Shown one piece after another: positions 12,515-18,848 of a stretch of DNA of 64,000 nucleotides. Position numbers and translations under genes: made by a program. Origin of the DNA: Succinispira mobilis DSM 6222. Its GTDB lineage: Bacteria > Bacillota > Negativicutes > Acidaminococcales > Succinispiraceae. Below the pieces are notes generated by a model. It ran no database searches. It saw nothing but the letters and a program-made list of their open reading frames with translations, and was not told where the DNA came from. Every line of letters starts with the position of its first letter. Position 1 is the first letter of the stretch. The stretch lies in the NCBI RefSeq assembly GCF_000384135.1, contig NZ_KB913028.1, positions 1,577,351 through 1,641,350 on the forward strand, in the 5' to 3' direction.

Positions 12515-13536
12515 TGAATACTAAACACACTTTGTTACAGTTTTTGCAAAAAAAAGACATAAATCCATCTAGTAATTTATATTTTGTACAAGCAACTTCC
12601 GCAATGGCTCAAGGTTTGTTTTGTTCGCTCTTAATTGGCTTAATTTTATCTACAATTGGTCAAAAATTTAATTTTCCTTTTTTAATAGAAGTTGGTAAAT
12701 TTAGCATGAGTATGTTAGGAGCATGTATCGGTGCAAGTATTGCCTATACATTAAAAGCTCCTCCCCTGGTAATCTTTTCTTGTATCATCACAGGTTTTAT
12801 TGGCAATAAACTTGGCGGTGCTGTAGGCGCCTATATTGCGGCACTTATTAGTTGCGAACTTGGAAAATTGGTTTCTCGTTCCACAAAACTTGATATCATC
12901 GTTACTCCTTTCACTACAATAATCAGCGGTGCCTTAATTGCTACTTTAATTGCCCCGAGTATTGATCGCATAATGAAACTTTGCGGTTTTATAATTATGC
13001 AAGCAACTGAGTTGCATCCTTTTTTGATGGGAATTATCGTTTCCGCTGTTATGGGTATTATTCTTACTTTGCCAATATCTAGTGCGGCCCTGAGCATTAT
13101 GCTCGATTTAGGCGGTTTAGCAGGTGGTGCGGCTACTGTTGGTTGTGCTAGTCAAATGATTGGTTTTGCTGTTGCCAGTTATCGTGAAAATAAATTTGCT
13201 GGCTTAATTTCTCAAGGTTTAGGAACCTCAATGCTACAAATAGGCAACATAGCTAAAAATCCTTATATTTGGCTACCACCAACACTTACTAGTATGATCC
13301 TCGGTCCTTTAGCAACCTTATTATTTAAAATGCAAAACTTGCCAGCTGGTTCTGGAATGGGTACTAGTGGATTAGTCGGCCAATTTACAACAATTGCTGT
13401 TATGGGGCATAGCAATGAAGTTTTGCTGAAAATTTCACTCTTACACTTTATATTTCCAGCAATTTTATCATTTTTAATTTCAGAGCTCATGCGTAAATAC
13501 AAATTTATTAACTATGGCGACCAAAAATTAGATTAA
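12514..13536 (+). CDS. Stand-alone PTS EIIC-type (EIIC_2 family) permease
   Basis: A 340-residue membrane protein with around nine hydrophobic segments and glycine-rich loops (SMLGACIGASIAYTLKAP, GGLAGGAATVGCASQMIGF, LPAGSGMGTSGLVG). These match the EIIC_2 family of phosphotransferase-type permeases. No EIIA, EIIB, HPr or regulator gene lies near it, and members of this family often occur alone, so whether it phosphorylates its substrate is unclear. ATG 12514 has AAAGGAG about 12 bases upstream. The substrate is unknown. Confidence 0.75.
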   Translation: MNTKHTLLQFLQKKDINPSSNLYFVQATSAMAQGLFCSLLIGLILSTIGQKFNFPFLIEVGKFSMSMLGACIGASIAYTLKAPPLVIFSCIITGFIGNKLGGAVGAYIAALISCELGKLVSRSTKLDIIVTPFTTIISGALIATLIAPSIDRIMKLCGFIIMQATELHPFLMGIIVSAVMGIILTLPISSAALSIMLDLGGLAGGAATVGCASQMIGFAVASYRENKFAGLISQGLGTSMLQIGNIAKNPYIWLPPTLTSMILGPLATLLFKMQNLPAGSGMGTSGLVGQFTTIAVMGHSNEVLLKISLLHFIFPAILSFLISELMRKYKFINYGDQKLD

Positions 13537-13574
13537 GGTTAAATAAAAGTTTGCTTTAAATTTTTTTTTTCGTT

Positions 13575-13615
13575 AAAATTAGGTATATGATTGGACAAAT
13601 CATATACCTAATTTT
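13575..13615 (+). terminator. Perfect 18-bp hairpin between permease and thioesterase genes
   Basis: AAAATTAGGTATATGATT (13575-13592), loop GGACA, then its exact inverse complement (13598-13615), preceded by a long T run (13559-13570) and followed by ATTTG. The stem has A/T-rich ends like a bidirectional terminator. It lies seven bases before the thioesterase ribosome site, so it could also act as a leader structure. Confidence 0.65.
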
Positions 13616-13637
13616 ATTTGTAAAGGATGTGCATCGT

Positions 13638-14108
13638 ATGCAAAAATCAGCAGCTGAATCTATCTTAATTATTAGCGAAGTCATGATGCCTAGCCAAGCT
13701 AACGTCGCAGGAAATATTCATGGTGGCGAAATAATCAAACTTATGGACTCTACAGCCTATGCCACAGCACGGCGCTATGCACGTTCAAATGTGGTAACAG
13801 CTCGAGTAGATGAACTGGAATTTCATTTACCGATATTTATTGGTGATTTGGTGATATGCACTGGCAAAGTAATTTTTGCCGGCAACTCATCAATGGAAAT
13901 CGCCGTAACAGTTGAAGTTGAAGATTTAGAACACGAGGGACGTCAGCGAGCCTTAAGTGCTTTCTTTACTATGGTTGCTTTGGATAAAAAGGGACGACCT
14001 AACAAAGTTCCTGAGTTGATTTTAACTAGTGACGAAGACAAACTCGCCTTTGAACAAGGTCAATTGCGTTACGAATCTTACAAAACTAAAAAAAGACAAA
14101 AAAAATAG
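13638..14108 (+). CDS. Acyl-CoA thioesterase (hotdog fold, YciA-like)
   Basis: A 156-residue hotdog-fold protein that would hydrolyse acyl-CoA thioesters in the cytoplasm. Key region GNIHGGEIIKLMDSTAYA (about 26-43) holds the His-Gly-Gly and Asp typical of the YciA/BACH group. RVDELEFHLPIFIGDLV follows. ATG 13638 is chosen because AAAGGA lies ten bases upstream; a longer frame starts inside the hairpin at 13575-13615. The C-terminus is a basic tail (KTKKRQKK). The substrate chain length cannot be read from sequence. Confidence 0.85.
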   Translation: MQKSAAESILIISEVMMPSQANVAGNIHGGEIIKLMDSTAYATARRYARSNVVTARVDELEFHLPIFIGDLVICTGKVIFAGNSSMEIAVTVEVEDLEHEGRQRALSAFFTMVALDKKGRPNKVPELILTSDEDKLAFEQGQLRYESYKTKKRQKK

Positions 14109-14195
14109 GCTACTAGTATCCTTATTACAAGAAAAATGCAAGACTAAATATTCAATTTAGCTTGTATATTCTTGTAATAAAATAATTAGTAGCCT
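14105..14195. repeat. 91-base nested inverted repeat after the thioesterase gene
   Basis: Three nested pairings are visible: TAGGCTACTA (14105-14114) with TAGTAGCCTA (14186-14195); ATTACAAGAA with TTCTTGTAAT inside; and CTAAAT with ATTTAG around a five-base loop. The outer left arm overlaps the stop codon of the thioesterase gene. On the minus strand a T8 run follows the outer arm; on the plus strand there is no immediate T run. It may be an RNase III-type processing hairpin, a terminator read from the right, or a small non-autonomous repeat. No second copy was noticed. Confidence 0.6.
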
Positions 14196-14236
14196 ATAAT
14201 TAGTACTAAAGTATTTTTTATAAAGGAGGCATTACT

Positions 14237-16474
14237 ATTATTAGTCGTTTACTTAACAATAAATCGCAACTTTATAAAAAACTGCTTTTCGCAATTATTA
14301 TTTCTCTACCTCTTTTATATATTGCTTTACAAATAAATAACACGCTCGTTCATAATTCAGAAAAAAATCTTAAAGAGATTTTCGCTAGAGCTAATACTTT
14401 AATTAATATTAAATTAGACAATAATTTACAACAATTGAATATTTTTGCTCAAGATATCCAGTCAATAAATAGTCTTAACAGGCAGCAACAATTATTATTG
14501 TTGCAAAATATTCTCAAAAACTCTGAGTTTTCACAACTTGGTTATGCCGACAACAATGGTCTTGCTTTGATTTCTAACGGCTTAACTTTTAACATTGCCG
14601 ACCGTGATTACTTCAAATTATCAATAATTGGTAAACACACAATTACGGATTTAGATAATAATCGATTCAATATTCCTGGAAAAGTAGTAGTCTTTGCAGT
14701 TCCGGTTCACAACAAAGAAGGTAATTATATTCAAGGTATCTTACTGGGAGTTTATGATATTGAGAAACTTTTAGATACTATATCATTGAATTTTTTTGAT
14801 AAAAACATTCATATTCATGTATTAAAAAAAGATTTATATGCTAGCTATGAGTTACTACATAAAGAACTTTTCAGTGTTCCTGATTCAATAGTTACAGAAA
14901 AATTATTTGCAAATTCCAGTTTTCAAAATTATCTTCATTCTACTAGTTCTAAAGAAGCTATTTTTGAAATTTTTGCCAATCGCGAACGAAATTTTGTGGC
15001 TATATCTCCGGTTAATTCAAAAAAAGTCACTAATTTAAATTGGTATACTTTTGCAATTTTTCCTAAATCAACAGTTTTTAAGCACGCTAATGCTGCTATA
15101 AGCCAAATTGTATTTTTGATAATTATTTTTTCGGTAGCTTTTACAATTTTCTTTTTCTATGTGCTCAAGGTGAAAAAATACAACAAACTTAAATTAGAGA
15201 AATTAGCCTATCAAGATGAGTTAACTAAATTAAATAACTACAATGGTTTTCTAGCAAACGGAAACTATTTAGTAGAAAATTCGCTCTACAAAATAGTTGT
15301 TATTTATTTCGATATAAATAATTTTAAATTAATTAATGGAATTTTTAGCTATGACTATGGAAATGATTTGTTAAAAATAATCGCTCAAACTTTAAAAGAT
15401 ACTTTTAAACAAGATACGGTATTAGCTCGATTGTCCATGGATCATTTTGCGGTAATTAGTCGTTATGCCAATAAAGAGCAAATTTTTGATATCCTAGAGC
15501 ATTTTTTGAGCTTAATAAACCATAAATACACTGGCAAGTACTCTATAAAGTTATCTATTGGCGTATATTTTAACCCTAGCAATCATAAGCCTAATATCTT
15601 AAACATGTTGAATAAAGCTAATTTAGCTCGAAAATATGTTAAAAATCAAGAATACCTGCCTTATGCAATGTTCGATAAGGACATTGAACAGAATTTAATT
15701 GAACGAACCTGGTTGGTTGATGAGTTAAAATTGGCTATCGAAGCGCAATCTTTTGAAGTTTACTATCAACCAAAATTCGACTTAAAAAATGGCAAAGCCG
15801 TTTCAACAGAAGCTTTAATCCGCTGGAATCATCCCCAAAAAGGATTTATTAATCCAGCAGTATTCATTCCCCTTTCAGAAGAAAGACAAATAACGCCTGC
15901 AATAACTAAAATTGTTTTAACTAAAGTTTGTAAAAATATCCTAGAATTGCGCCAAGAAAACTTGCCTGTATTAACTTGTGCTGTAAATTTTTCTCAAATT
16001 GATTTTTATAGCCCAAATCTCAGCCAAAATATTTCAGAAATTCTCACGGCCTACAACATTGTTCCAGAGTTATTAGAAATTGAAATTACTGAAACCGCAA
16101 TATTTAGCGATTATCAATACATGGAAAGTATCTTAAAGGAATTAAAAAAACTTGGATTATCAATAGCAATTGATGATTTTGGCAGTGGTTATTCTTCAAT
16201 CGCTAATTTAAGTGCGCTTACGGTCGATATCATTAAAATTGATCGATCAATTTTGGTAAATGCCTTTAAGGATGATAAGAGTATGAGCATTCTAAATTCT
16301 ATCATAAAATTAGCTCAAGACATCCAATTGCAAATAGTCTGCGAGGGCGTTGAAACAGAAGCGCAACTCGAGCTTTTAAAAACTTTGAACTGCGACTATG
16401 CCCAAGGTTATATTTATTCCAAACCATTATCCTTTTCAGAATACAAGCTATTTTTACAACAAATTTACGCTTAA
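14237..16474 (+). CDS. dCache-GGDEF-EAL membrane protein, likely c-di-GMP phosphodiesterase; apparent AUU start
   Basis: About 745 residues: an N-terminal membrane helix (about 18-34), an extracellular dCache-like sensor, a second helix (IVFLIIIFSVAFTIFFFYV, about 292-312), a GGDEF domain and an EAL domain. The GGDEF site reads LSMDHF and should be inactive. The EAL site is intact: EALIRW (Glu525), the Asn in NFSQIDF, EITETA, DDFGSGYSS (Asp646-Asp647), IKIDRS, EGVETEAQ and AQGYIYSKP. So it likely degrades c-di-GMP. The open frame continues upstream of the first TTG (14435) through a full membrane helix to a perfect AAAGGAGG (14222-14229), but no ATG, GTG or TTG lies there. ATT at 14237 has ideal spacing, so AUU initiation (or a mutated start) is inferred. 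Confidence 0.82.
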   Translation: MISRLLNNKSQLYKKLLFAIIISLPLLYIALQINNTLVHNSEKNLKEIFARANTLINIKLDNNLQQLNIFAQDIQSINSLNRQQQLLLLQNILKNSEFSQLGYADNNGLALISNGLTFNIADRDYFKLSIIGKHTITDLDNNRFNIPGKVVVFAVPVHNKEGNYIQGILLGVYDIEKLLDTISLNFFDKNIHIHVLKKDLYASYELLHKELFSVPDSIVTEKLFANSSFQNYLHSTSSKEAIFEIFANRERNFVAISPVNSKKVTNLNWYTFAIFPKSTVFKHANAAISQIVFLIIIFSVAFTIFFFYVLKVKKYNKLKLEKLAYQDELTKLNNYNGFLANGNYLVENSLYKIVVIYFDINNFKLINGIFSYDYGNDLLKIIAQTLKDTFKQDTVLARLSMDHFAVISRYANKEQIFDILEHFLSLINHKYTGKYSIKLSIGVYFNPSNHKPNILNMLNKANLARKYVKNQEYLPYAMFDKDIEQNLIERTWLVDELKLAIEAQSFEVYYQPKFDLKNGKAVSTEALIRWNHPQKGFINPAVFIPLSEERQITPAITKIVLTKVCKNILELRQENLPVLTCAVNFSQIDFYSPNLSQNISEILTAYNIVPELLEIEITETAIFSDYQYMESILKELKKLGLSIAIDDFGSGYSSIANLSALTVDIIKIDRSILVNAFKDDKSMSILNSIIKLAQDIQLQIVCEGVETEAQLELLKTLNCDYAQGYIYSKPLSFSEYKLFLQQIYA

Positions 16475-16516
16475 CCTAATCTCAGCAGATTTAACTTTGG
16501 AGCTGGAGGTCTATTA

Positions 16517-18709
16517 ATGAATAATAATAGCAACCTAAAAACTATTGCTGCGGCTATTCTTTCTTGTTTGTTGTTTTTTTCAATGTATTATATGCATTCT
16601 ATAAAAACTTCACTCACTCAAGAATCTGCCTCTTACTTTGTTGAACTCCTAGACAAAACCGCTAAACTTATAAAAATCAAGGCAGATGCAAATTTTCAAA
16701 TTTTGCGCACAATTGTACCTGAAGCTTCAAAACTCGATAAATTATCACTTAATGACCGCCTTTATTTTCTAAATTCGAAGCTAGAAAACTCACCATTTAA
16801 AAAATTAGCATATGCTGACAATACTGGCATGGCGTTATTAAGTTCTGGCGAAAATTTAGATATTATTACCACAAATTTCTATCAAACCAGCTTTTATAAA
16901 CACGAAAATTGCATAGAAAACGAGCATGGCGATATTGTTTTTAGCATTCCAGTTTTTAACTCAAATAAAATAGTCACAGGCGTTTTATACGCTATTGTGC
17001 CTAGTGTAGAATTCTTTGAAGACAGCACTAATACCTTATTAGGTATCAACGATAAAGTAAACTCATATGTTCTCAATAATACTACTTTAAATATGCATTT
17101 TCTTACGAAAGAATTGGATAGTTCTTTCTTCGAAAAGGTTAAGCATAACCATATCGAAAAAATAATTCCTATTTTCTCTAATAACAATATTCGTCTAACA
17201 GAATTCTTCTCTGACCACCAAAAATATATTTTTGCCAACACCTCAATTCAAAGTCCTGAAAATAATCTAAATTGGAGTTTAATAACAATTTTACCTAGTT
17301 CTGTTTTGGCAGTAGCTGCAACTCAAACTATTGCGCTAATTTCGCTTTTATTATTTTTATTGTTGCTAATTTTCATCGGTACAATTGCCTATATTCTAAA
17401 TATGCAAACTCAAAACAAACACAATCTAGAAAAAATAGCATATATTGACAGTCTCTGTTCAATTTATAATAACAATGGACTAATCTTTTATGGCGAGAAA
17501 AAAATTAGACTTTGGCAAATAAATATTGCAGTTATTTATTTAGATATAGACAATTTTAAAATGATCAACAATGTATTTGGCTATGATTATGGTGATCAGT
17601 TACTAAAAACATTTAGTTTAATCTTAAAAAAATGTTTTAAATCGCATTCAATAAGTGCACGCCTTTCTATGGACCATTTTGCGATAATTGTCCACTATTC
17701 TAACAAGATAGCTTTTTTTAAAACCCTGAATAAATTTATTACTACCATTAAAAACAATTATGCCCATAAACATCTTTTAAAACTTTCTCTAGGGCTCTAT
17801 TTCCCAGTTGATCATACAAGCGAAACTATAAGTAATATGCTAAATAAAGCTAATATTGCTAGACAAAAAGTGAAAAACAAAGATCGTCTGCCTTATTTTA
17901 TTTATAACTCAAAGTTAGAACAAGATTTATACTACAAAACATGGCTCCTGGCTGAACTAAAAGCTGCCTTAAAAAACAAAACGCTAGAATTATTTTATCA
18001 ACCTCAATATGATCTGAAAAATTTTAAGCTCAACGCGGCTGAAGCAATTCTAGTTTGGAATCATTCCGAAAGAGGTTTTATTCCGCAAAGCGTATTTTTT
18101 AAAATCGCTGCCGACAACCAGTTGCGAACCGACTTAACTAGTATAATGCTAGAGAAAATATGCATCGATATGCATAGCTGTAAACTACAAAATTTACCCC
18201 TCCAAAAAATCACCCTAACTCTCTCTAAATTTGATTTCTATCAAGAAAATTTAGTAACTAATTTCACAGAAACTATAGGAAAATACAAGCTCGATTTTTG
18301 CTTATTTGAAATAGCAATCGAAGAGACTATCTTGGTTAACAATTATACAAAAATAGAACCGCATTTGCTAAAATTAAGGGATTTAGGTATTAGTATTGCC
18401 ATTGACAATTTTGGTACGGGCTATTCATCTTTCTCTACTCTCGGGACCTTAGCCGTTGATGTAATAAAAATCGACCACTCTATTGTGATTAATTCAATAG
18501 ATAAAAGCAAACAAGTAAATATAATTAAAGCTATTGTTGCTTTGGCTAAAAATATTAATTTAAAAACTGTAGCTACTGGAATTTCAACTCAAGAACAGCT
18601 GGATATTTTGGTTGAGCTCCAGTGTGATGCAGCCCAAGGATTACTTTTCTCCAAACCTCTAGCACTTGTTGACTATTTTAAATTGTTAGCGTATATAAAA
18701 GAAGATTAA
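16517..18709 (+). CDS. dCache-GGDEF-EAL paralogue with degenerate active sites
   Basis: A 730-residue tandem paralogue of the preceding gene, with the same order of helix, sensor, helix, GGDEF and EAL. ATG 16517 follows GGAGG. The GGDEF motif is again LSMDHF. The EAL domain has lost key residues: EAL-x-R has become EAILVW (no Arg, about 509), the Asn-containing strand is LTLSKFDF, DDFG has become DNFG (Asn631), and EGVET has become TGIST (Thr687). Metal binding and catalysis should therefore be gone. It may sense c-di-GMP, or regulate its active neighbour by heterodimerisation. The frame is intact and ends within a terminator, so it is not an obvious pseudogene. Confidence 0.85.
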   Translation: MNNNSNLKTIAAAILSCLLFFSMYYMHSIKTSLTQESASYFVELLDKTAKLIKIKADANFQILRTIVPEASKLDKLSLNDRLYFLNSKLENSPFKKLAYADNTGMALLSSGENLDIITTNFYQTSFYKHENCIENEHGDIVFSIPVFNSNKIVTGVLYAIVPSVEFFEDSTNTLLGINDKVNSYVLNNTTLNMHFLTKELDSSFFEKVKHNHIEKIIPIFSNNNIRLTEFFSDHQKYIFANTSIQSPENNLNWSLITILPSSVLAVAATQTIALISLLLFLLLLIFIGTIAYILNMQTQNKHNLEKIAYIDSLCSIYNNNGLIFYGEKKIRLWQINIAVIYLDIDNFKMINNVFGYDYGDQLLKTFSLILKKCFKSHSISARLSMDHFAIIVHYSNKIAFFKTLNKFITTIKNNYAHKHLLKLSLGLYFPVDHTSETISNMLNKANIARQKVKNKDRLPYFIYNSKLEQDLYYKTWLLAELKAALKNKTLELFYQPQYDLKNFKLNAAEAILVWNHSERGFIPQSVFFKIAADNQLRTDLTSIMLEKICIDMHSCKLQNLPLQKITLTLSKFDFYQENLVTNFTETIGKYKLDFCLFEIAIEETILVNNYTKIEPHLLKLRDLGISIAIDNFGTGYSSFSTLGTLAVDVIKIDHSIVINSIDKSKQVNIIKAIVALAKNINLKTVATGISTQEQLDILVELQCDAAQGLLFSKPLALVDYFKLLAYIKED

Positions 18710-18748
18710 TTTAGGTGATTTGCTCACTAAAATTAATCTTCTTTTTTG
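18700..18748 (+). terminator. Terminator of the tandem EAL genes
   Basis: AGAAGATTAATTTAGGTGA (18700-18718) pairs with TCACTAAAATTAATCTTCT (18724-18742) with one bulge, followed by TTTTTG. The stop codon of the second EAL gene lies inside the left arm. Confidence 0.85.
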
Positions 18749-18749
18749 T

Positions 18750-18755
18750 TATACT
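18750..18755 (+). promoter_or_regulatory. Possible extended -10 promoter before the FeS membrane protein
   Basis: TG-T-TATACT (18747-18755) is an extended -10 match directly after the terminator; no good -35 is seen because the terminator occupies that place. It would give a leader of about 85 bases with no recognised structure. Confidence 0.3.
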
Positions 18756-18848
18756 TGGTAAGTAAAAGGCATCAGGACTGTATTATGGTTAGTTTTGTAA
18801 ACAAATACAAATTCTGATTTCCAAAACTTATTATCTGCGGGGGTTAAT

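Follow-up and report, generated by a model that had tools for sequence, protein, structure and literature searches.

Where translation begins is the question raised by a long EAL-domain gene in the window (the whole 64,000-nucleotide stretch of Succinispira mobilis DNA analysed here). Sequence and ORF inspection place its frame at 14210–16474, behind a stop codon, TAA, at 14207, and the first in-frame ATG, GTG or TTG is a TTG at 14435. The sequence-only reading of this locus had reported AAAGGAGG ending at 14229, an ATT at 14237 and, from there to the TTG, a 198-base extension free of ATG, GTG and TTG, all of which we found as described.

Frame, start signals and encoded protein

The features of the gene and its neighbour are as follows.

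14222–14229, + strand: Shine–Dalgarno (SD) sequence AAAGGAGG; a match of at least 8 occurs at the best canonical start in 18 of the 353 ORFs of the genome sample described below
14237–14239, + strand: proposed start codon ATT, 7 nt from the SD; alternative in-frame ATT at 14240–14242, spacing 10
14237–16474, + strand: gene for a 745-residue membrane protein with an N-terminal helix, a probable extracytoplasmic dCache-like sensor, a second helix, a degenerate GGDEF domain (SMDHF) and an intact EAL domain (Pfam and alignment)
14282–14338, + strand: N-terminal membrane helix, hydropathy 2.16, residues 16–34; lost if the start were 14435
14435–14437, + strand: first in-frame canonical codon, TTG, with no SD; residue 67, inside QQLNIF, aligned to DVLNIF of Clostridioides difficile homologues
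16517–18709, + strand: paralogue with 37% identity, its ATG standing at spacing 7 from GGAGGT; its EAL domain is degenerate (EAI; T in place of N; DNF in place of DDF; TGIS in place of EGVE)

Because ATT, ATC and ATA make up 83 of the 745 codons of the gene, the ATT at 14237 is weak evidence by itself. No rescue start was found in any frame between 14109 and 14434, where the ATG, GTG or TTG codons at 14136, 14162, 14172 and 14322 open just 1–7 codons. The locus thereby shows the arrangement expected of a strong-SD gene initiated on AUU: canonical starts that could serve it are lacking, and the SD stands at a proper distance from an AUU. A 16S rRNA gene was not found in the S. mobilis genome assembly searched, so the usual anti-SD sequence was assumed.

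The 198-base segment encodes LLFAIIISLPLLYIALQIN, 66 codons comprising a membrane helix and a stalk, and can be aligned with its counterparts in the neighbouring paralogue and in three C. difficile homologues. Similarity runs across the position of the TTG, and the C. difficile proteins have their ATG start a few residues upstream of the matching helix; judged by this homology, the 66 codons upstream of TTG 14435 are protein-coding. A good membrane helix shared with the paralogous neighbour had been noticed in this segment and is confirmed, with a mean hydropathy over 19 residues of 2.16 in the EAL protein and 1.62 at the equivalent place in the paralogue. The AlphaFold model draws residues 11–75 as one helix at low confidence, its N-terminal half being poor (mean pLDDT 67.6, pTM 0.43), and this long helix is only suggestive.

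EAL phosphodiesterases carry the catalytic motifs EAL, N, ExxE, DDF and EGVE, and diguanylate cyclases an active-site loop GG(D/E)EF. All the EAL motifs checked are intact in the 745-residue protein (Pfam EAL, 231.7 bits, 1e-68, curated cut-off 31.3), and the paralogue, which lies 42 nt past the EAL gene with its own ATG and SD, fails them; the motifs accordingly support the earlier suggestion that the EAL protein is the sole active one of the pair. The loop of the GGDEF domain (65.7 bits, 5.6e-18 in the 745-residue protein) reads SMDHF in both proteins and departs from that of diguanylate cyclases. Pfam dCache_1 was not found in the 745-residue protein at E 0.5 and was found in three of the five aligned members; the label of a probable dCache-like sensor comes from alignment to homologues alone, in a region modelled with low pLDDT, and a search for solved structures related to the sensor half gave none. 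The likely product, from these comparisons, is a sensor-controlled c-di-GMP phosphodiesterase bound to the membrane, and the likely product of the next gene is a relative without enzymatic activity.

Start signals across the genome

The strength of the signal was compared with chance in a 464-kb sample, made up of the window and 20 further stretches of the genome and containing 353 long non-overlapping ORFs. A spacing of 7 is the mode: of the 299 sample ORFs with an SD match of at least 5 at their best canonical start, 63 show it. AAAGGAGG alone is not rare, with four occurrences in the window against 2.39 expected from shuffles. Its 11 sites in the 464 kb include seven that precede canonical starts, and among the remaining four the site of the EAL gene opens a 745-codon frame while the others open at most 29 codons; the rarity lies in the position of AAAGGAGG, not in its presence. 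Four sample ORFs have a strong SD ahead of the first canonical codon and none at a canonical start, and the EAL gene alone among them has the perfect 8-mer. The other three probably have a different explanation: an AbgT-family transporter frame (L128, 5806–7218, + strand; Pfam 3.6e-144) and a dCache gene (L128, 13198–14601, − strand) each have an RBS and ATG in another frame, and one gene has an ATG a few codons on. The transporter frame may have been disrupted naturally, may be subject to phase variation or may reflect an error of assembly.

The whole genome was then scanned for AAAGGAGG-N5-10-ATH and AGGAGGTG-N3-9-ATH, a scan that covers these two SD forms, weaker SDs having been examined in the 464-kb sample alone. 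It returned 26 matches to the first pattern and seven to the second (33 in all, at 29 distinct sites), raw counts that are not above those of the reversed-pattern controls (26 vs. 36 and 7 vs. 10). Sorting was more informative: 21 matches lead to a canonical start that opens 30 codons or more, nine to short frames only, and three to an ATH frame of at least 30 codons without such a start. These three are infC (172 codons), the EAL gene (745 codons) and a 33-codon frame with a TTG at its seventh codon, which leaves infC and the EAL gene as the only long frames without a canonical start in the scan for the two SD forms.

The gene infC is the textbook AUU-start gene, and its recovery is a positive control for the scan; here it has an ATT behind AGGAGGTGAT, the sequence reading AGGAGGTGATTTCTT-ATT. 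We extended the comparison to 31 infC loci (L116 and L139–L168), that of this genome and the 30 others whose DNA was available, out of 61 genomes searched, 57 of them with a match. The start codon is ATT in 13 of the 31 and ATA in the other 18, each with a GGAGGTGA-type SD ahead, and therefore the ribosomes of this order very probably initiate on AUU or AUA when given a long SD. A few infC loci (L146, L147, L148) also show an ATG two codons earlier, almost upon the SD.

Probable initiation on AUU and rival readings

We consider it probable that the full-length membrane c-di-GMP phosphodiesterase starts on AUU 14237 (less likely on AUU 14240), placed there by the SD, because no canonical start serves the frame, the SD is both strong and at the modal spacing, and the N-terminus is conserved among homologues. 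The AUU start put forward in the sequence-only reading thus stands, reinforced by these three points and by the finding that infC is the sole other such gene in the whole-genome scan.

Pairing between the initiator tRNA and AUU is imperfect, and IF3 discriminates against this codon. Initiation at AUU 14237 would then proceed at a low level and be sensitive to IF3: mispairing and IF3 discrimination would hold the protein to a fraction of what AUG would give, roughly one-tenth should the Staphylococcus aureus cases discussed below be a guide, and the degenerate paralogue with its normal ATG would outnumber the active enzyme. By analogy with known cases, we would expect low but real, IF3-sensitive synthesis, and IF3 control of c-di-GMP breakdown is plausible.

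Whether the AUU has been selected or is a recent change from ATG, the latter being the low-expression alternative raised in the sequence-only reading, is about evenly balanced. A close orthologue for comparison of the codon was not found: 62 of 150 relative genomes gave a match, and those outside the genome itself were weak (approximately 20–38% identity) and mostly partial, while a search of contigs gave a best full-length match elsewhere of about 31% identity. The family to which S. mobilis belongs is represented by one genome. The GGDEF-EAL membrane proteins of C. difficile (L061–L063) are 31–32% identical over their full length and have the same domain order and N-terminal helix, but their start codon is ATG, preceded by a GGGGAGGA-type SD. 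Selection is favoured by the unusually long SD and by the intact frame and catalytic motifs; the ATG starts of these distant homologues and the broken state of a related dCache/EAL locus speak against it. That the AUU is a selected control element, coupling synthesis of the phosphodiesterase to IF3 activity and growth state and setting the ratio of active enzyme to partner on a shared mRNA at the start codon, is an attractive but doubtful proposition.

The broken locus bears also on the strongest alternative, a start-loss pseudogene, in which an ATG at 14237 or 14240 has recently mutated, too little protein is made to matter, and the intact frame is a leftover. The other GGDEF/EAL matches in the genome whose 5′ end is included have a canonical codon near the beginning of the frame in all cases but L009 (G000:C1:1142535-1143212), an EAL frame with an internal TAA, whose first canonical codon is at codon 42 and lacks an SD. 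It adjoins the dCache gene at L128 13198–14601 mentioned above, and the two form a signalling locus in decay, a relative of the one analysed here; because this locus is broken, family members do decay in this genome. A single substitution would be enough to remove the ATG, and in S. aureus, according to PMC13009471, citZ of NCTC 8325-lineage strains begins with AUA. Start loss nevertheless seems unlikely to us, given that 745 codons are intact with all checked EAL motifs present, that the strong SD is retained, and that in S. aureus and Yersinia, as those cases are described, translation still begins on an AUU that has a good SD (PMC13009471, PMC10191623). Elsewhere in the genome, L025 holds a GGDEF-like frame containing one TAG and one TAA.

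A sequencing or assembly error, with the organism really having ATG and an ordinary gene, is very unlikely. The disruption of the transporter frame at L128 5806–7218 could likewise be an error, but the site in question is not a homopolymer, an error would require a substitution exactly in the start codon, and the genome is a single contig, 98.39% complete and 0.01% contaminated. A start at TTG 14435 is scarcely credible: it is the first codon acceptable to standard gene finders, but it has no SD, lies inside the segment conserved among homologues and would shorten the protein by its first membrane helix, leaving the sensor part without its N-terminal anchor.

Known AUU starts and the upstream region

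ATG, GTG and TTG are, to our knowledge, the only start codons that standard gene finders allow, so that the annotated N-terminus of such a gene would be cut short and its anchoring misjudged, and we know of few AUU genes besides infC. The EAL gene would join the known genes with AUU or AUA starts (infC, pcnB, and cvfC1 and ccpN of S. aureus). It would resemble infC of the same genome in having an ATT start behind a long SD; infC, however, is feedback-controlled by its own product, whereas the EAL product does not act on initiation and any effect of IF3 would be one-way.

The pcnB gene of Escherichia coli is a chromosomal gene held low by AUU, as the EAL gene would be, and is cited as limited by this codon with reference to Binns and Masters 2002 (cited in PMC13009471 and PMC9410913), though its product, poly(A) polymerase, is unrelated. 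Ribosome profiling in S. aureus, as presented in PMC13009471, places starts on AUU at cvfC1 and on AUA at ccpN and infC, all with an extended SD; in poor medium the fusions reported there reached about 10% of what AUG gave, and ccpN up to 30% in rich medium. As proposed for the EAL gene, cvfC1 and ccpN combine a non-canonical start with a long SD, but for their codons PMC13009471 describes both conservation among relatives and detection by ribosome profiling, whereas the AUU of the EAL gene is known from the sequence of one genome. In Yersinia pestis, RcsD-Hpt is reported to require an AUU start (PMC10191623); it too belongs to a signalling gene, one that affects biofilm, but by the same account its AUU is an internal start in a frameshifted gene and not the main one. 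This Yersinia paper was the only one returned by a phrase search of open-licence papers for c-di-GMP together with an AUU start codon, and a phrase search of the same kind found no description of start-codon or IF3 control of a c-di-GMP enzyme. If the AUU start is true, a signalling enzyme held low by its start codon would couple the turnover of a second messenger to the condition of the translation apparatus. Every further AUU gene offers a way of testing how IF3 helps to choose what is translated.

Two further features lie upstream of the gene.

14109–14195, + strand: long imperfect inverted repeat that separates the thioesterase and EAL genes; fold z-score −7.63, with 0 of 200 shuffles as good (folded 14105–14260)
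14172–14200, + strand: promoter-like TTGTAA-17-TATAAT, 10 of 12 matches, the best in the region; its −35-like hexamer lies in the right arm of the hairpin

A search of 13500–18800 for known RNA elements gave none at gathering score, and a search for further copies of the hairpin region returned the region itself in both orientations and weak matches. Promoter-like sites are not above shuffles (14 found vs. 15.2 expected); the one at 14172–14200, if used, would yield a leader of about 30 nt. The hairpin is followed by T-rich sequence on the − strand, and the promoter-like site overlaps its right arm.
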